Assembly: GCA_937951485.1 (NCBI GenBank)
Contig: CALEDJ010000034.1
Coordinates: forward strand, 62,001-126,000
Origin: an uncultured bacterium
GTDB taxonomy: Bacteria; Hydrogenedentota; Hydrogenedentia; Hydrogenedentales; CAILVY01
Reading direction: 5' to 3'
DNA length: 64,000 bases
Both the position numbers and the translations under genes were made by a program. Under the pieces are notes generated by a model that saw nothing but the letters and a program-made list of their open reading frames with translations, made no database searches and was not told the origin of the DNA. Below, piece by piece: positions 1,949 through 8,891 of the stretch (the stretch's first letter is position 1; each line of letters begins with the position of its first letter).

Positions 1949-2070
1949 GTTCATACAGGATGGGTTGGAGGATGTATCCAACACCGCCGGAAGGAATCCC
2001 GGGAGTGCCGGTTTTTCAAGCGGCGGCGTTGAAACAATGGTCGGTCCCATAGAAGTAAGGAGAATAAAAA

Positions 2071-2199
2071 ATGAAGCACGTTCGTACTATCAGCAGAAAA
2101 CCCGCAAAGGCCGCTGACGTCACGATTGGCCAGGTGATAGCAGTGATTGCGGCGATTCTGGAAGTAATCGGCAGCGCATTGGTTTCCAAAAACGTCTAA
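2071..2199 (+). CDS. Small peptide A of the MKH-x3-IS array (42 aa)
   Basis: ATG 2071 is preceded by AAGGAG at 2057-2062 with eight-base spacing, and the frame closes with TAA at 2197-2199. The peptide starts MKHVRTISRKPAKAAD and continues as a hydrophobic helix-like stretch (TIGQVIAVIAAILEVIG) ending SALVSKNV. It has no Cys. The first nine residues match those of four more small genes immediately downstream, which is the main evidence that it is real. It has its own promoter and a probable terminator. I do not recognise the family. The layout (constant N-terminus, variable C-terminus, next to an RRE/SPASM-like protein and an exporter) suggests a precursor peptide with leader and core; that is inference. 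Confidence 0.65.
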   Translation: MKHVRTISRKPAKAADVTIGQVIAVIAAILEVIGSALVSKNV

Positions 2200-2204
2200 T
2201 TTCT

Positions 2205-2244
2205 GGACAGGCTTCTTTGCAAAAGGAAGAGAAGTCCCTTTTTT
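2205..2244 (+). terminator. Probable intrinsic terminator after peptide A
   Basis: GGAC 2205-2208 pairs with GTCC 2234-2237, and CTTCTTT 2212-2218 pairs with AAAGGAAG at 2222-2229 with one bulged base. Six Ts follow at 2239-2244. It lies six bases after the stop of peptide A and could make that gene the most abundant product of the array. Confidence 0.45.
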
Positions 2245-2349
2245 GTCGTTAAAGGAAGATGCGTTCGCTTATACGACACCAGAATGCATTGTCGGTTTCG
2301 CAACGCCAGCGGGTGCGATCTTCGGCAAGACATGGGAGGAAAAACGGCG

Positions 2350-2520
2350 ATGGCACATATGAAATCCATCACCCGACCGGTGATGGCCGCGAGCATGTGC
2401 GACGACATTCGCAGCGATTTCCAGGCGCGATTGTGTTTCGTGCTCGAGTTTCTCACCGGTTTCATTTTCCCGATAATTGAGGCATCACTCCAGGGCAAAT
2501 ATCCGTCCAATTCCAACTGA
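2350..2520 (+). CDS. Small peptide B of the MKH-x3-IS array (56 aa)
   Basis: ATG 2350 follows GGAGG at 2335-2339 with ten-base spacing. The start reads MAHMKSITRP, which aligns residue for residue with peptide A over nine positions (M-K/A-H-hydrophobic-basic-S/T-I-S/T-R). An in-frame ATG at 2284 gives a longer product but has no ribosome binding site and would bury the shared motif. The C-terminal part is hydrophobic and aromatic (CFVLEFLTGFIFPIIEA) and ends in a polar Ser/Asn tail. It holds two Cys, at about residues 16 and 28. Function unknown; proposed precursor peptide. Confidence 0.55.
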   Translation: MAHMKSITRPVMAASMCDDIRSDFQARLCFVLEFLTGFIFPIIEASLQGKYPSNSN

Positions 2521-2569
2521 AGCGGATGCCGTAAACCGGCCGGCCCCGGGAAGAAAAAGGAATGCACCC

Positions 2570-2689
2570 GTGAAGCGTCTGCGCCCTATTTCCAGGACGC
2601 CCAAGATTGCCGCGTCCGTCGCTCCCGAAGTGAAATTGACAATCATCGTGCAATTCATCGACATTTATCAGCAGAAAATGGGGTATTAG
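2570..2689 (+). CDS. Small peptide C of the MKH-x3-IS array (39 aa)
   Basis: GTG 2570 follows AAGGAA at 2557-2562 with seven-base spacing and ends at TAG 2687-2689. The peptide begins MKRLRPISRTPKIAAS, which fits the array motif, then continues EVKLTIIVQFIDIYQQKMGY, an amphipathic or hydrophobic helix-like tail. No Cys. A longer in-frame version from 2477 would bury the motif and lacks a good ribosome binding site. Function unknown; same proposed class as peptides A, B, D and E. Confidence 0.6.
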   Translation: MKRLRPISRTPKIAASVAPEVKLTIIVQFIDIYQQKMGY

Positions 2690-2731
2690 TCCCTGACGCG
2701 CGGCGTCCACGTCCGCTGGAGACCAGGTAGC

Positions 2732-2887
2732 GTGAAACATCTGCAATGTCTGACCAGACCGCCGGCGATCGCCAACCAGCCGACACCGGAGCAGAAACTG
2801 GCGTTTATTGAAGCGGTGCTTCGCATGTTCATCCCGATTGTGCGGAACAAGAATCCGCGCAATCCCGTGGAAACGACCTCTTCATAG
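2732..2887 (+). CDS. Small peptide D of the MKH-x3-IS array (51 aa)
   Basis: GTG 2732 has GGAGA at 2718-2722 with nine-base spacing; the stop is TAG 2885-2887. The start MKHLQCLTRPPAIANQ matches the array motif with L-T in place of I-S. After PTPEQKL comes a hydrophobic helix-like block (AFIEAVLRMFIPIV) and a polar tail rich in Asn, Arg and Ser. Peptides C and D share a P-E-x-K-L/Q-K-L turn before their hydrophobic block, which supports common descent. One Cys at residue 6. Function unknown; proposed precursor peptide. Confidence 0.55.
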   Translation: MKHLQCLTRPPAIANQPTPEQKLAFIEAVLRMFIPIVRNKNPRNPVETTSS

Positions 2888-2921
2888 GAAGAGGCGTGGA
2901 ACGCGCCCCCTGCGTTGTCGG

Positions 2922-2950
2922 TTGTAGTCGGCGCGGTAATCTGGTTTAAT
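2922..2950 (+). promoter_or_regulatory. Possible internal promoter for peptide E
   Basis: TTGTAG 2922-2927, a 17-base spacer and TTTAAT 2945-2950 resemble a sigma-70 promoter with a weak -35. Initiation near 2957 would give a leader of about 32 bases with GGAG at 2978-2981 before ATG 2989. It could drive peptide E and possibly the operon behind it. Confidence 0.35.
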
Positions 2951-2988
2951 ATGCGCCGGAAACAATTTTTCAGTGACGGAGTAGGACC

Positions 2989-3108
2989 ATGAAGCATATC
3001 AAGAAAATTTCGACGGTGCGGGCGGATGCGTTCACGGATTTCATGAATGCCATCTGGCGGGCTTGGCAGGATTTCCGCTACGCCAAGAAGAACGAAATCT
3101 ACGGCTGA
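2989..3108 (+). CDS. Small peptide E of the MKH-x3-IS array (39 aa)
   Basis: ATG 2989 has GGAG at 2978-2981 with seven-base spacing; the stop is TGA 3106-3108. The start MKHIKKISTVRADAF matches the first eight array positions but has Thr where the others have Arg. Its C-terminus differs from the other four: it is aromatic and charged (AIWRAWQDFRYAKKNEIYG), with two Trp and two Tyr, rather than aliphatic. It lies 82 bases before the first GNAT gene and is the copy nearest the processing operon. Function unknown; proposed precursor peptide. Confidence 0.6.
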   Translation: MKHIKKISTVRADAFTDFMNAIWRAWQDFRYAKKNEIYG

Positions 3109-3128
3109 CCGAGAATCCTTCGGGGCAG

Positions 3129-3146
3129 GGGGCGTCTGATCGCCCC
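3129..3146 (+). terminator. GC-rich hairpin between peptide array and processing operon
   Basis: GGGGCG-TCTGAT-CGCCCC is a perfect six-base-pair stem in the 82-base gap between peptide E and the first GNAT gene. There is no T tract, so partial termination or mRNA stabilisation is likelier than full termination. Such elements are common between precursor and enzyme genes in peptide operons, but the role here is inferred. Confidence 0.35.
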
Positions 3147-3190
3147 GATAGACCGCAGCCATCCCGGCCGGCGGTGGCGGGGCGTCATTC

Positions 3191-3721
3191 ATGATTCAAG
3201 GCATATACACCTGCATACGCACAACGGACCCGGACGATGCTCCGGCCCTGCACGGTCTGTACGACCTGCAACGGCCGCGCGCAGCATTGCTGGACATGCG
3301 CCGCGAGCCGATCATGCCCACGGTGGATGAATTGCGGGAGATGCTGGGCCGTAAAGAGGCAGTACGCGGCGCATTTTTCACCATTGAAAACAGAATGGGG
3401 GAAATAGTCGGGTTTTGCGGGCTGCGCAGCGTGAGCGCCGAGGCCCGCTTTGCGGAAGCCACCCTGATGATGTGTAAAGAATCGGATTGCGCCGGACCGG
3501 AGGCAAGCGAAGCCCTCGCATTTCTCCGCAGCCGGGGCTTCAACTGGTTGCGAATGCGCAAACTGGTCGCGCATTGCCTGGACCGTGAAACCGCCTTACG
3601 CGATGCTCTGCTGCGTCATGGGTTCCAGAGCGAAGGCGTACAGCGGGAGGTCTTTTACGCCGCAGGGCGGTGGCATAATCTCGAAGTGCTCAGCCTCTTT
3701 GCGGAAACCGCGGGCGAATAG
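3191..3721 (+). CDS. GNAT-family N-acyltransferase (RimJ/RimL-like), first of the operon
   Basis: A 176-residue GNAT-fold protein. The N-terminal strand and helix pattern (IRTTDPDDAPALHGLYD), the central strand around FFTIENRMGEIVGFCGLRS and the late block from LVAHCLDRETALRDALLRHG to the W-H-x-L-E ending all match RimJ/RimL-type GNATs. The usual acetyl-CoA loop (Q/R-x2-G-x-G/A) is not clear around residues 95-110, so catalysis may be weak. ATG 3191 lacks a strong ribosome binding site. The next gene starts 12 bases downstream. GNAT acyltransferases are known maturases in lipo-RiPP systems (goadvionins, selidamides); acting on the adjacent peptides is inference. Confidence 0.75.
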   Translation: MIQGIYTCIRTTDPDDAPALHGLYDLQRPRAALLDMRREPIMPTVDELREMLGRKEAVRGAFFTIENRMGEIVGFCGLRSVSAEARFAEATLMMCKESDCAGPEASEALAFLRSRGFNWLRMRKLVAHCLDRETALRDALLRHGFQSEGVQREVFYAAGRWHNLEVLSLFAETAGE

Positions 3722-3733
3722 AAAGGGAAAGCG

Positions 3734-4363
3734 GTGCCGTTTTCGACGGAGACATGGATACGCCGGGCGGACCGGGAAGATCTGGACACGGTGATCGGCT
3801 GGATGGACGATCCGGATTTCCAACGTTTTCTCTATGGTGATCCGGCGCGGTCACCCAAACAGATTCGCGAGCAGATCGTCTCCATGCTCGGCCGCACGGC
3901 GGGGCACACGATGCCCGGCGGCGTCTATCTCATCCTGGACTCGAAGCGGCATGGCCCGATTGGCCTGATTTCTCTCCAGAATATCAGTTGGCGCAACCGT
4001 TCCTGCAACATCGAGTTGTATATCGGCAATGCCGCCGCCCGCAGCCGGATAACCGCCGCCATTGCGATTTACCGCACACTGGAATACTGCTTCGATGAAC
4101 TCAACCTGCACCGCGTCGGCGCGATCATCTACGCTTTCAATACAGCGTCCTGGCGAATCTTCGAGAAGGCCGGCGCGGTGCGGGAACTGACGCTACGCGA
4201 CCACATCGTCCGCGACGGCCAGACCCACGACATGTACGGCTACGGCCTGCTCCGCCCGGAATTCGAGGCGCTTCGCGCGCGCTATCAACGCCAGTCCGAA
4301 GATGTTTCCCTCCGCGCAATGATTGAATATCTGGCGCGCGAGGAAACGGGTGCGCCGTCGTGA
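3734..4363 (+). CDS. GNAT-family N-acyltransferase, second of the operon
   Basis: A 209-residue GNAT. GTG 3734 follows AAAGGGAAAG. The sequence begins with the family pattern WIRRADREDLDTVIGWMDD. It has a central R-S-R-I-T-A-A segment in the place of the CoA-binding R-x2-G-x-G/A loop, and then the RimJ/RimL hallmark NTASWRIFEKAGA. The glycines of the loop are replaced, so CoA binding may be altered. The C-terminal 30 residues (RARYQRQSEDVSLRAMIEYL) extend past the usual fold. The stop overlaps the GTG start of the CPBP gene (4360), which indicates translational coupling. Likely role: acyl transfer to a peptide or small molecule of the cluster (inference). Confidence 0.8.
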   Translation: MPFSTETWIRRADREDLDTVIGWMDDPDFQRFLYGDPARSPKQIREQIVSMLGRTAGHTMPGGVYLILDSKRHGPIGLISLQNISWRNRSCNIELYIGNAAARSRITAAIAIYRTLEYCFDELNLHRVGAIIYAFNTASWRIFEKAGAVRELTLRDHIVRDGQTHDMYGYGLLRPEFEALRARYQRQSEDVSLRAMIEYLAREETGAPS

Positions 4364-5064
4364 GGATTCTTTTTTTCCTCTGCTTCGCCGCGTATGTCGT
4401 CCATACCATGCTGGCGAACCGGCGGGACGATCCCGCGCACCGGCGCGTCACGGGGGCGATGCTGCTGATCCAGACGCCGCTCTTGTTGTTGGCCTGCCAC
4501 TTCGCCTGGCAGCGCGGCGTGTTCTCGCGCGATTTGGTTTCCCCGCTGCATATCGGGGCGGGGCTGCTGATCGGCCATGTCATCTTTGCCTGCTCGCTGT
4601 TAATCACCCACGGTGTCTGGCGGGATGCGGCGGCGCATTTCGTGCAGGTCGGCCCCTTCCTTCGCTTTCTCGTGGAGGCGCCGATGATCATGCTGCGCTT
4701 TATCACTGTCAGCATCACGGAAGAAATCATCTATCGCGCGGCGGCGCAGCCGTTGCTGACGGCGTGGACGGGGCGGCCCCTGCTTTCCATTGTGATTGTG
4801 GCGCTCGCCTTCGCCGTTGTACACAAGCATTTTCTCAGGAACCCGGTGGTGCAGTCCGGGGAATTCCTGGCTTTTTCGCTGCTGCTGGGCGGGCTATACT
4901 ACTGGACAAACAGCCTCAGTCTCGTGGTGGCGGTTCATGTCCTGCGCAATCTGGAGAGTCTGTACCTGGAGTATCTGATGAAGACGGAAGAACTGGGCGA
5001 CGCCCAGCGCGCGCTGAATGCGCTGGAGCAGACCTATCAACGCCTGCCCGGAGAACGCGTATGA
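4360..5064 (+). CDS. CPBP-family intramembrane metalloprotease
   Basis: A 234-residue polytopic membrane protein starting at GTG 4360, overlapping the previous stop. It carries the three CPBP (Abi/Rce1-type) motifs: E121-E122-x3-R126 in SITEEIIYR, F151-x3-H155 in FAVVHKH, and H193-x3-N197 in HVLRN. Several hydrophobic segments fit six to eight membrane helices. CPBP proteins are glutamate-type intramembrane proteases; in bacteria many sit in bacteriocin or peptide clusters, where they take part in maturation or self-immunity. Here the gene lies between acyltransferases and an exporter and overlaps the ABC ATPase by ATGA, so leader removal or immunity is a reasonable inference. Confidence 0.85.
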   Translation: MRILFFLCFAAYVVHTMLANRRDDPAHRRVTGAMLLIQTPLLLLACHFAWQRGVFSRDLVSPLHIGAGLLIGHVIFACSLLITHGVWRDAAAHFVQVGPFLRFLVEAPMIMLRFITVSITEEIIYRAAAQPLLTAWTGRPLLSIVIVALAFAVVHKHFLRNPVVQSGEFLAFSLLLGGLYYWTNSLSLVVAVHVLRNLESLYLEYLMKTEELGDAQRALNALEQTYQRLPGERV

Positions 5065-6110
5065 ACCGGGAATATCTGGTGGAATTGGACCGCGTGGACA
5101 AAGCCTTCGTCACCCGCCATTTTTTTCACATTGATGAGGATACGCGCACCCGCCGCATCTACAACCGCCGCCTGGTGCGCGCCGCCGACGCCATCACCTT
5201 CGGCATCCGTCCCGGCGAAATCTTCGGCCTGCTCGGACCGAACGGCGCGGGCAAGACCACCACGGTGAAGATGGTGTCGGGACTCGTGCGGCCGGACGCC
5301 GGCGCGGTCTACGTGGACGGCATGCATGTGGAGAAAAAGCGTAAGAAGGTGCTGCGCAAGGTGGGTGTGGTGCTGGAGGGCACGCGCACAAGCATGTGGC
5401 CGCTGACGCCGCTGGAAAACCTCATGTACTACGGCAACCTCAAGGACGTGCGCGGCAAGGTGTTGCGGGACCGCGCCCACGAATTGCTGGATTTCATCGG
5501 CCTCAAAGAGAAGAAGAACGTGCAGGTGCGGCGGCTTTCGCGCGGCCAGAAACAGAAACTGGCCATCTGCATTGCCCTGATTGCCGATCCCCTTGTGCTC
5601 CTGCTCGACGAACCCACCACCGGCCTCGACGTGCAAAGCAGCCGCGCCATCAAGGACAAGATTCTCGAACTCACCCGTCAGCAGGGGCGTTCCGTGCTGG
5701 TGACGACGCACGACATGCACGTCGCCCAGGAGTTGTGCGACCGCATCGGCATCATCAACAAAGGCAAACTCATCGCGTGCAAACCCACTGCGGAACTGCT
5801 GGACCTCTTTTCGGGGCATGTCTTTGTGTTCAAACTGGACCGGGCACCGGACCCGGCCCGTGTGCGTACCGTCCCCGGCGTGCTGGATTGCACCGTGGAA
5901 CAAAGCAACGACGGGCCGGCGCTGGTCTTGCGCGTGACGGATGAACCGGCACAGCGATCCGAGGGTTTTTATCGCGTCATAGAACTGCTGCGCGAGGGCG
6001 GCTTTCAACTCCGCAGCCTGACCCAGCGCCAGCAGAACCTGGAAAGCGTTTTTCTGCAATTGACGGGCGAAATCGTGGAAGAGCGACCGGAATACACTGG
6101 AGAGGAGTAG
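5061..6110 (+). CDS. ABC transporter ATP-binding protein (ABC-2 exporter type)
   Basis: A 349-residue ATPase starting at ATG 5061 inside the stop of the previous gene. It has Walker A GPNGAGKTT (about residues 59-67), a signature written LSRGQ, Walker B LVLLLDEPTTGLD and a switch His in LVTTHD. A 35-residue insertion before the first core strand (HIDEDTRTRRIYNRRL) and a 90-residue C-terminal accessory region are typical of drug, antibiotic or polysaccharide ABC-2 exporters. It pairs with the permease that starts two bases after its stop. Likely role: export of the cluster product, or immunity against it. Confidence 0.92.
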   Translation: MNREYLVELDRVDKAFVTRHFFHIDEDTRTRRIYNRRLVRAADAITFGIRPGEIFGLLGPNGAGKTTTVKMVSGLVRPDAGAVYVDGMHVEKKRKKVLRKVGVVLEGTRTSMWPLTPLENLMYYGNLKDVRGKVLRDRAHELLDFIGLKEKKNVQVRRLSRGQKQKLAICIALIADPLVLLLDEPTTGLDVQSSRAIKDKILELTRQQGRSVLVTTHDMHVAQELCDRIGIINKGKLIACKPTAELLDLFSGHVFVFKLDRAPDPARVRTVPGVLDCTVEQSNDGPALVLRVTDEPAQRSEGFYRVIELLREGGFQLRSLTQRQQNLESVFLQLTGEIVEERPEYTGEE

Positions 6111-6111
6111 C

Positions 6112-6948
6112 ATGGGTTTCTTTCTTGTGATGAAGGCCGAGATTGTGCGGTCGTTCATCATCATGCGGCGTTACTGGTTCCGTACCATCACCGGCATGAT
6201 CCTCGGCTACGGGATGCTCATGGTACTGATCGCGGGCTTCATCTACAGCCGCCCCGTCGTGGAAGAAAGCATGAGCCGTTTTGACGATCCCACAGCGGCG
6301 ACGAACTTCGTGCTGGGCTTCATCATCGGCATGTTCGCTTTCGGCGTGGTAGGCATGTTCACGCAGGGCATCCAGGAAATGGCGCAGACCGGCGTGCTTG
6401 AGCAACTCTGCATGAGTCCGCACGGCCTGATCTTCAATTTCCTGGCGCGCACGGCGGTAGGTTCGGTGTACACCATCCTCTCCTCCGGCGTCATGGTGTG
6501 GCTGGTGACGTTGACCGTGGGAGGGCGTCTGTATTTCGACGCTGCAGCCGTGTTGATCTTATTGACCCTGACTTTCGTCAATCTTCTTGGATTCGGATTC
6601 ATGGTCGGCGGGCTGGTGCTGGTGTTCAAGCAGGTGGGCCAGATCGCGATTCTCCTGCGCATGGGGCTGTTCGCGTTGGCCGTCTTTGCGCGCGAAGAGA
6701 TGCTGCACCAGGGCTGGGCGCTGGCCGCCGTCACCCACGCCCTGCCGGTCACCGACGCGGCCATCTGCCTCAAGTATGTGCTCATCCAGGATCAGGGCCG
6801 GCTCACAGGCGATTTCATGCCCGTCTATGCGCATCCTTCGTTCTTCTGGTTGATTGTGAGTTGCATGGCCTGGACGGCCATCGGCATCGTCGTCTTTGAA
6901 TTCATGGAACGCTGGAGCCGCTCCAGAGGCACCCTGGGAGCATACTGA
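6112..6948 (+). CDS. ABC-2 type permease
   Basis: A 278-residue integral membrane protein with about six hydrophobic segments: residues near 20-42, 60-85, 103-135, 145-170, 185-200 and 235-258. The order and the long central helix pair are typical of ABC-2 permeases such as DrrB, and the gene follows an ABC-2-type ATPase with a one-base gap. The stop overlaps the start of the next gene as TGATG. It most likely forms a homodimeric channel with the upstream ATPase. Substrate unknown; the context favours a peptide. Confidence 0.88.
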   Translation: MGFFLVMKAEIVRSFIIMRRYWFRTITGMILGYGMLMVLIAGFIYSRPVVEESMSRFDDPTAATNFVLGFIIGMFAFGVVGMFTQGIQEMAQTGVLEQLCMSPHGLIFNFLARTAVGSVYTILSSGVMVWLVTLTVGGRLYFDAAAVLILLTLTFVNLLGFGFMVGGLVLVFKQVGQIAILLRMGLFALAVFAREEMLHQGWALAAVTHALPVTDAAICLKYVLIQDQGRLTGDFMPVYAHPSFFWLIVSCMAWTAIGIVVFEFMERWSRSRGTLGAY

Positions 6949-8891
6949 TGGCCGGGCCGGCGCTCCACCGCTATGAACGCGACGGCAGACGCTACGCCGT
7001 GGATCCGGAAACCTGTTTCTGTTTCGAGTGCGACGCGGTGTCCTGGGACGTCCTGGAGCATTACCCGCATGCGACGCTGAACCGCATCCTGCATCTGCTG
7101 CAGGACCGCCACCCCGAAAAGGAAATCCTGGAGGTGGCGGGGGAACTCGAATGGCTGCGCGCCGCAAAGTCCATTTTCACCGTGCCGAAGCAGGAAGACT
7201 ACGCCAAACGCTTCGAGATTGAGCGCGGCCTGAAAAGAATGACTGTGCTGTGCGCGGGCAGTGCGCAAACGCAGGCATCCCGACGATGGTTCGCGCGGCG
7301 TGGTGACAATAGCGCGAATCGCGGCGGCGAAGACGCCGTTTCCGATCGCCTGCTGGCGGCGGCGCAACTGCTGCTGGCGAGGTCCGGCAAGCAGCGGGAA
7401 CTGCGCCTCGAATGCGTCTGGCCCCGGCCGCCCGCGGACCCGGCAGTCATCACCGCCTGCTGTCGCAAGGTCCGCGCCCTGGCGCGGCTGGCGGACAAAG
7501 AGGTCCGGATTTCAATCATGATAGACCCCCTGCCCGCCTCGGCGGATGTGTTTCGCGGCCATGATCTCGCGGCTTCCCTTGAAATCAGCGGCGACATCGG
7601 CGATGACGCCGCCGATGCCCTGCGTCAATTCCTGCGCGCCGCGGCGCGCGGGCCGGAGGCGGCGGCGAAAGCCGCGCCGGACGCGCCCGGAATGGGCATC
7701 CGCATCGTGATTCGCCCCGGTCATCCCGACTTCGCGGGCGTGGTACAGGCATGCCGCGCCGCCGGCGTGGGGCACATCGAACTGGATTTGGAGGGGGCCT
7801 ACGTCGCGCATCCGGCGCTGGACCCGGCGGCGATGGCGAAGACGCTGGAGGCGGTCGCGCTGGATTACGCGGAGGAACTCGTCCAGGGACGCTATTGGCG
7901 GCTGGAGCCAGTCGCGGGCCTGTTCGCGCGCATTTATCATGGGACGCCGCAGGCCCGCACCGACGACGCGGGGACTTATGCGCTGGCCGTGGCGGAAGAC
8001 GGCGGCATTTATCCCGGGCGGCACTTCATTCCGTGGGACGCCTTCCGCGCCGGGGCGCTCGACGAGGCAACCATCGTCGAAGCGGCGCTCCGGCGTTTTG
8101 ACGATGCAGGCGCGCTCACCACGCGGCCATGCCTGCGCTGTTGGGCGCGGAACCTGTGCGGCGGCGGCGCGGCGGCGGTGCACCAGGCGCTCAGCGGTTC
8201 CTTCCGCGCGCCGCATCCGCCCTGGTGCGACGCGCAACGAGGCTGGATGGAGGCGGCCATCGCCGCATTCAACCGGCTTGCCTCGGAGGGCGTCAATTTC
8301 GCCCGCATCCACGAGGCGATGCGCCCCGCGAAACGTCCGGGCCTGCTTGCCATGGTGCGCGCCGCCTTCCGCATGCACATCGGCCTGCGCCCCATCGAGG
8401 AGGCCGACGCGCCGCTGCTGGCCAAATGGGAAAACTGGAACGACGCCGCCTATTTCACCTTCAATGAACACGGCCTGCTCATGGCCTCGCAGTACGACCG
8501 GGAAATGGATGCGCTGCATCCACTCGGCATCGAACAGGAATTCCTGTTGCTGCGCCGCAAAGGCGACCCGTTCGGGCTGCTGAAAATCCGGCCCGAAGCG
8601 ATGCCCGGCGTGGCCATGGCTTGGATTTACTTCCGCAACCCCCGCGACTACGCCGAGGAAAAAGTCCGTACCTCGTTCCGGTACATGCTGCGCGAAGCCC
8701 TCGCCCGGCAGGGTATCCAGCGCATTCTCATCCCCGCCGGCCCCGGTGAACACGCTTTGGCCGATTTCCTCGCCGCCGTCGGCTTTGCGCCCTGCGCCAC
8801 GCTCCGCGAGGCCCTCTACCTCCACGGCGCATACCATGATATGTGCCTCTTTTCATTCATGTTTGACGAGGAGAAGATGGCCCCGCGTTGA
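6948..8891 (+). CDS. RRE / degenerate radical-SAM / SPASM-like protein fused to a GNAT domain
   Basis: A 647-residue protein translationally coupled to the permease. Residues 5-78 look like a PqqD/RRE peptide-binding domain as found at the N-terminus of radical SAM peptide maturases (YERDGRRYAVDPETCF...VLEHY). Residues 95-340 fit a radical-SAM-like barrel in length and strand pattern, but the CxxxCxxC motif is absent; the expected site reads TVLCAGSAQTQASRR. Residues 343-445 resemble a SPASM domain (GGIYPGRHF, then PCLRCWARNLCGGG) and keep C395-x2-C398-x5-C404 and C427, while other SPASM Cys are lost. Residues 476-640 are a GNAT domain (IGLRPIEEADAPLLAKWEN). I infer a peptide-binding scaffold that presents small peptides to an acyltransferase. 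The domain calls are by eye and need profile searches. Confidence 0.65.
   Translation: MAGPALHRYERDGRRYAVDPETCFCFECDAVSWDVLEHYPHATLNRILHLLQDRHPEKEILEVAGELEWLRAAKSIFTVPKQEDYAKRFEIERGLKRMTVLCAGSAQTQASRRWFARRGDNSANRGGEDAVSDRLLAAAQLLLARSGKQRELRLECVWPRPPADPAVITACCRKVRALARLADKEVRISIMIDPLPASADVFRGHDLAASLEISGDIGDDAADALRQFLRAAARGPEAAAKAAPDAPGMGIRIVIRPGHPDFAGVVQACRAAGVGHIELDLEGAYVAHPALDPAAMAKTLEAVALDYAEELVQGRYWRLEPVAGLFARIYHGTPQARTDDAGTYALAVAEDGGIYPGRHFIPWDAFRAGALDEATIVEAALRRFDDAGALTTRPCLRCWARNLCGGGAAAVHQALSGSFRAPHPPWCDAQRGWMEAAIAAFNRLASEGVNFARIHEAMRPAKRPGLLAMVRAAFRMHIGLRPIEEADAPLLAKWENWNDAAYFTFNEHGLLMASQYDREMDALHPLGIEQEFLLLRRKGDPFGLLKIRPEAMPGVAMAWIYFRNPRDYAEEKVRTSFRYMLREALARQGIQRILIPAGPGEHALADFLAAVGFAPCATLREALYLHGAYHDMCLFSFMFDEEKMAPR

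Follow-up and report, generated by a model that had tools for sequence, protein, structure and literature searches.

What are five very short open reading frames (ORFs) that begin alike and lie in a row ahead of a transport operon? They were found in a 64,000-nt stretch of DNA, here called the window, whose source organism belongs to Candidatus Hydrogenedentota, a phylum of which we know of no cultured representative. The ORFs, 39 to 56 amino acids long, occupy positions 2071 to 3108. An earlier note, made from the letters of the DNA, described them as leader-core peptides under diversification, with a common start and with tails that run from aliphatic (A) to aromatic (E). All five are present where that note placed them, and its description of the two extremes is correct. 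E values are from hidden Markov models (HMMs).

2071-2199, plus strand: peptide A, ATG start, 42 amino acids, aliphatic helix (TIGQVIAVIAAILEVIGSALVSKNV); leave-window-out HMM, E = 2.2e-15; has group A orthologs
2350-2520, plus strand: peptide B, ATG start, 56 amino acids, hydrophobic helix with two cysteines (C..xxSDFQA..CF); group B HMM without the window, E = 1.9e-17
2570-2689, plus strand: peptide C, GTG start, 39 amino acids; leave-window-out HMM, E = 2.7e-7; group C HMM, E = 7.5e-10
2732-2887, plus strand: peptide D, GTG start, 51 amino acids, terminus ..RNKNPRNP; leave-window-out HMM, E = 6.7e-14; group C HMM, E = 5.8e-16
2989-3108, plus strand: peptide E, ATG start, 39 amino acids, aromatic amphipathic helix (ADAFTDFMNAIWRAWQDFRYAKKNE); group E HMM without the window, E = 2.4e-27

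Each start is preceded by a Shine-Dalgarno-like motif of its own, as had been claimed: from A to E these are AAGGAG, GGAGG, AAGGA, GGAG, and GGAG, located 8, 10, 8, 10, and 7 bases before the start. The ORF of peptide B is also open further 5' (2284 and 2332), but 2350 is its best start because the homologs all begin at the conserved leader. Gaps of 42 to 150 bp separate the five ORFs, and 82 bp separate peptide E from the start of the next gene (GN1, below). At 120 to 171 nt the genes are short, as noted earlier, but not under the length limit of every gene caller. Promoter and terminator scans stayed near shuffled expectation, with the exception of an extended -10-like site ending at 1948.

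To evaluate the common start, an HMM of 98 homologs from other genomes was run against the 1,315 stop-to-stop ORFs of at least 25 amino acids in the 64 kb. This leave-window-out model recovers exactly these five, with E values, from best to worst, of 2.4e-16, 2.2e-15, 6.7e-14, 2.7e-7, and 2.4e-5, the next match having an E value of 4.4. A chance likeness of the starts is thereby ruled out, and it is virtually certain that the five are real, conserved genes. The peptide family is absent from Pfam and NCBIfam, where searches with the peptides gave best values of 0.047 (SecE) and 0.077, neither of them credible.

Iterated HMM searches gathered 103 members of the family from 26 loci, all of them located 5' of GN1 and on its strand. 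They share the leader claimed earlier, with the consensus MKH[IL]+x[IV][ST]R..P..A (M-K-H-[IL]-[KR]-x-[IV]-[ST]-R with P11 and A14). This leader of 12 to 16 residues, of which MKHVRTISRKPAKAA is an example of the type, is followed by a hydrophobic or amphipathic helix of 20 to 25 residues and then by a nearly invariant lysine; DAFTDFMNAIWRAWQDFRYAKKNE is an example of a predicted core. The members fall into groups A (TxGQIL..), B (two cysteines), C/D (APEVKLTF..IPLFxNKNPxNP), and E (ADAFTNFxNAVWRAWxDFRYEKKNE), and in 26 of 26 loci an E-type peptide closes the array. E-type peptides of other taxonomic families share 51 to 74% identity with that of the window. The family is poor in cysteine, with conserved cysteines (two) only in group B.

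The tails had been called variable, but they are not free: the lysine stands directly after the helix in 101 of the 103 members, a count that combines a script with a reading by eye, which found it in 11 of the 13 members listed by the script as lacking it. It is the sole invariant column in an alignment of 41 sequences (A3) and is also invariant among 26 E-type sequences (A2). In the window it corresponds to Lys40 of peptide A (codon 2188-2190) and Lys33 of peptide E (codon 3085-3087). Solo peptides were also observed far from the main locus in at least nine loci (L192, L194, L195, L196, L197, L199, L200, L205, and L208), for example beside rpsB-tsf (L199 and L200) or following gltD (L205); each of them carries the leader and the helix-end lysine. 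These members with the same leader suggest that the machinery can act in trans. In some loci of one taxonomic family (f5; L037, L038, L039, and L041), the array consists of one long two-helix peptide and an E-type peptide, and GN2 is duplicated in tandem.

We assessed selection on the peptides by codon comparison in six pairs of related genomes, amounting to 20 peptide comparisons. All pairs come from family members other than the window genome, which is without a close relative in the set. In the true frame the peptides have a pN/pS of 0.25, while the shifted frames give 1.22 and 2.17, values to be read with dS near saturation in several pairs. Differing sites are concentrated at third codon positions (0.50, compared to 0.22 at first and 0.15 at second positions), and enzymes of the same genome pairs have pN/pS values of 0.20 to 0.32. 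Judged against these shifted-frame and enzyme controls, purifying selection acts on the peptide genes as it does on their neighbors, and the tails of the peptides are not diversifying between species. The earlier note had proposed a comparison of codon rates between leader and tail, and constraint on the tails proves no weaker than that on the leader (pN/pS of 0.23 from residue 16 onwards, compared to 0.32). The same comparison rules out hypervariable cores. Its proposal of leader-core peptides under diversification thus divides in two: the leader-core part stands, given a start found in 103 members and in SCIFF precursors and an RRE-type maturase homolog in the locus (both described below), while diversification does not, as A to E fall into orthologous groups (A, B, C/D, and E) that are each conserved across the phylum. 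The differences among A to E instead reflect an old, fixed split into peptide types. Frameshifts or stops in homologs and a lack of coding constraint, the two grounds on which the earlier note would have given up the genes, were also examined, and the genes stood.

The peptides head a closely packed set of genes on the plus strand that continues with two GNAT-like proteins, a protease, an ABC pair, and a large SPASM protein, and is followed by mutS:

3191-3721, plus strand: GN1, GNAT-like protein without a canonical acetyl-CoA P-loop (0 of 28 homologs); Pfam Acetyltransf_3, 1.6e-7; nearest solved structure SpeG, 1.7e-9
3734-4363, plus strand: GN2, GNAT-like protein without a canonical P-loop (0 of 29 homologs); Pfam Acetyltransf_3, 1e-18; SpeG fold by Foldseek, 4.8e-14
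4360-5064, plus strand: CPBP (Rce1-like) intramembrane protease with EExxxR, FxxxH, and H motifs; Pfam PF02517, 1e-12
5061-6110, plus strand: ABC exporter ATPase of the DrrA/NatA type; Pfam ABC_tran, 9.5e-29; TIGR01188, 4.4e-70, below cut-off
6112-6948, plus strand: ABC-2 type permease; PF12698, 1.7e-4
6948-8891, plus strand: SPASM protein of 647 residues, a SCIFF-maturase homolog without the radical-SAM motif and with a C-terminal GNAT domain, by its match to CteB and a cysteine census
6948-7217, plus strand: its N-terminal RRE-like domain (beta3-alpha3) with CFCFEC (C23, C25, and C28), by model secondary structure and alignment to the CteB N-terminus
7230-7967, plus strand: its degenerate radical-SAM barrel (CX3CX2C in 0 of 31 homologs)
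7968-8282, plus strand: its SPASM domain, C395, C398, C404, and C427 kept and the cluster I cysteines lost
8367-8882, plus strand: its GNAT-fold domain, formed by the C-terminal 170 residues, without a canonical P-loop (0 of 31 homologs); VIA-align Z of 16.5 to RimL 1z9u

The SPASM protein identifies the lineage of the system. Its best solved relative is CteB (5WGG), the SCIFF maturase of Clostridium thermocellum, which a profile of 26 homologs matches over residues 4 to 430 (hmmsearch, E = 7.1e-44). An AlphaFold model (pLDDT of 86) superimposes on CteB over 385 residues, with the N-terminal domain included (VIA Z of 27.5, rmsd of 3.5), and the order of elements in that domain, three strands followed by three helices, is that of an RRE. 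The NCBI equivalog TIGR03974 scores 67.3 bits, below its cut-off of 425. The CX3CX2C motif of CteB (CNLRCKYC) is replaced and occurs in 0 of 31 homologs of the SPASM protein, but it is present in ordinary maturases with a complete ORF. Cluster I cysteine sites are altered as well, YPC reading YPG and GGC reading GGG-A, such that the cysteine after GG is gone. CX2CX5C and [CT]FCxEC, in contrast, are kept in all 31 homologs, and C395, C398, C404, and C427 are invariant; from knowledge of anSMEcpe-type enzymes, we take these four to be the ligands of auxiliary cluster II. A further motif, C-F-C-F-E-C-D, lies in the hairpin of the RRE (window positions 7014-7031) and is absent in CteB. Its C23 is found in 28 of 31 homologs and both C25 and C28 in all 31; it is a possible metal or cluster site. 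Judged by its cysteines, the SPASM protein cannot perform radical-SAM chemistry of the known kind, because CX3CX2C is gone.

SCIFF precursors carry six cysteines in about 45 residues, and the product contains a thioether crosslink. Precursors located beside genuine maturases in Syntrophomonas and Vulcanibacillus start with MKHIITVIKP and MKHIKILSR. When a 10-residue HMM of the Hydrogenedentota leader was run on the 1,645 ORFs of ten SCIFF loci, SCIFF precursors ranked 1 to 4 and 7. The motif is short and single ScfA scores are weak (best E = 0.042), but the joint rank is striking. Together with the maturase homology, it supports a common origin for leader and leader-binding protein alike, with convergence on the same RRE groove as the alternative. 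We consider it very probable that the system derives from the SCIFF (ranthipeptide) system. As in SCIFF (ScfA-ScfB and CteA-CteB), a homologous protein with RRE, barrel, and SPASM domains adjoins precursors with an MKHI-type leader, and one broadly conserved copy per genome runs through the whole lineage. Unlike in SCIFF, the radical-SAM and auxiliary cluster I cysteines are lost and a GNAT domain is added; the precursors are hydrophobic helices with a terminal lysine rather than a six-cysteine core; and the array holds two to six precursors, in a locus whose constant members include a CPBP protease, an ABC pair, and two GNAT-like proteins.

The short, hydrophobic character of the ORFs and the solo copies elsewhere in genomes could also be accounted for by small regulatory or toxin-like membrane peptides, such as attenuator leader peptides or type I toxins, that happen to lie upstream of a transport operon. 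We consider this very improbable: constraint on the amino acids along the entire peptide, a leader of the SCIFF type, arrays that stably hold several members, and solo copies in unrelated contexts all point to a function in trans at the protein level. An Rfam search for a structured RNA in place of the peptide genes likewise gave no match at E values up to 0.5.

A second alternative turns on the exporter. Like aureocin A70 and garvicin KS, in which tandem short helical peptides are served by a dedicated ABC transporter, the locus encodes several related short cationic or hydrophobic helical peptides in tandem with a DrrA-type ABC pair. The peptides could accordingly be multi-peptide bacteriocins, similar membrane-active helices with dedicated export and with CPBP for immunity; CPBP proteins do occur beside bacteriocin genes (PMC9298176, PMC8692603). 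Leaderless bacteriocins have no leader, however, while here the leader is conserved in the family and common to SCIFF precursors, a SCIFF-type leader-binding protein is present, and conservation is vertical and phylum-wide. The SPASM protein occurs once per genome in 62 of the 68 sampled genomes of the phylum, with the permease in 60, GN2 in 57, and the E peptide in 55. A single, order-conserved locus per genome and tails under purifying selection are unusual for weapons, and we regard the bacteriocin explanation as improbable. Genomes without the SPASM protein belong mostly to one taxonomic family (f4). One of these (G005) retains GN2, a family peptide beside gltD, and, on contig C288, a permease fragment; the true absences therefore probably number four or five, including one genome that is only 60% complete.

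The GNAT-like domains bear on a third alternative, that the peptides are RiPP lipopeptides. Three such folds would acylate the helix-end lysine before export, as in selidamides, the donor being perhaps acyl-ACP rather than acetyl-CoA. Each locus indeed encodes three GNAT folds; GN1 and GN2 resemble SpeG-type polyamine acetyltransferases, the nearest solved relatives (SpeG and RimL) acylate amines, and the lysine found in 101 of 103 members is a candidate acceptor. GNATs that acylate lysine or ornithine side chains of RiPPs are known from selidamides and nostolysamides, including lysine lipidation (PMC13060382), and there, too, GNAT-fold proteins adjoin leader-bearing precursors with a candidate lysine. 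Unlike those systems, the present one has no lanthionine synthetase and no canonical GNAT P-loop, and its lysine sits at the C-terminal end of the helix, where it could equally cap the helix or set topology. A census of the P-loop consensus [QR]xxGx[GA] found it in 0 of 88 domains (28 GN1, 29 GN2, and 31 SPASM C-terminal), which counts against ordinary acyl-CoA use and demotes plain GNAT acetylation as the main explanation. Because the consensus occurs in none, the GNAT-like domains may be non-catalytic or may use a donor other than acetyl-CoA. We hold the lipopeptide explanation to be possible but unlikely, and any modification of the lysine to be only slightly less doubtful.

We thus return to the reading that we favor, with a probability of roughly 0.6: the five ORFs are precursors of a secreted short-peptide system that is derived from SCIFF, free of radical chemistry, and core to Candidatus Hydrogenedentota. 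In the crystal structure of CteB, the CteA leader adopts a beta strand that is flanked by alpha3 and beta3 of the RRE (PMC8326336). By this analogy, the RRE-like N-terminus of the SPASM protein likely recognizes the leader and would bind it as a beta strand. The SPASM protein, no longer a radical-SAM enzyme, would then join GN1 and GN2 in serving as a leader-dependent scaffold or modifier. "Scaffold" is perhaps too modest, because cluster II is strictly conserved, the CFCFEC motif is new, and GN2 is highly conserved (homologs share 51 to 72% identity with the window), which suggests some real chemistry in the system.

Leader removal would fall to the CPBP protease, the best candidate by analogy and gene content. 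MroQ, an integral membrane protease, cuts the leader of AgrD (PMC10885120), and there as here, a membrane protease of the CPBP family whose catalytic residues are intact is encoded beside short amphipathic peptides; E121, E122, R126, F151, H155, and H193 are conserved in at least 95% of 29 loci. Unlike the AgrD-MroQ system, the locus has no AgrB, no thiolactone, and no Agr sensor pair, and cleavage here is a prediction, though a reasonably probable one. The ABC pair, whose ATPase is highly conserved, would export the helix or place it in the membrane, and gene content makes export of the peptide similarly probable. For the product, a role as a fixed envelope peptide or as a signal within the species is more probable than one as a diversifying weapon. 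In solventogenic Clostridia, SCIFF ranthipeptides have been tied to quorum sensing (Chen et al. 2020, as cited in PMC8326336). It has been argued that their wide spread counts against an antimicrobial role, an argument that applies to the Hydrogenedentota peptides too. More speculatively, and improbably as a whole, a SCIFF maturase may have turned, early in the history of Hydrogenedentota, into a non-radical, cluster-bearing leader-recognition protein that is fused to a GNAT fold with an unusual donor and modifies the helix-end lysine in a set of short peptides that is itself fixed; once exported, these peptides would form a phylum-defining envelope or signaling system.

The maturase and the leader belong to a known lineage, while the peptide family is new to Pfam and NCBIfam. 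A survey of open-access literature, work on degenerate radical-SAM proteins included and with subscription papers and preprints outside its scope, yielded no description of the locus. Outside the phylum, a search whose sensitivity was limited by its two peptide patterns found no full-length relative of the SPASM protein; it returned only ordinary SPASM enzymes, mostly over the SPASM stretch and at 20 to 37% identity. Nearly all Clostridia have SCIFF peptides, whose function is a matter of continuing debate. The sister system described here, from a phylum unrelated to Clostridia, has kept the leader and the leader-binding protein but dropped the radical chemistry, and so parts the role of leader and RRE from that of the radical enzyme. 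It also presents a maturase lineage in which one Fe-S cluster was kept, two were lost, and an acyltransferase fold was gained.

The surroundings of the array vary. The glutamate synthase genes gltB-gltD lie directly 5' of it in 12 loci of several taxonomic families (L047 [1984-8059], L036, L041, L043, L044, L046, L048, L050, L054, L055, L056, and L038), and this site is probably the ancestral one; the window genome carries gltD on a different contig from the array. A 4Fe-4S dicluster-type gene with a cysteine-rich middle (start near 317, end at 1642) lies directly 5' of the array in the window only. Neither this gene nor the downstream MutS gene had a match in any of the relatives' loci, and both were rejected as parts of the system. 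The locus itself constitutes a nearly phylum-wide marker for Hydrogenedentota. One public record that carries it, JAACEL010000057.1 (G054, L065), is titled Nitrospiraceae bacterium; our genome set places this genome in Hydrogenedentota, and the title is probably a mislabel.
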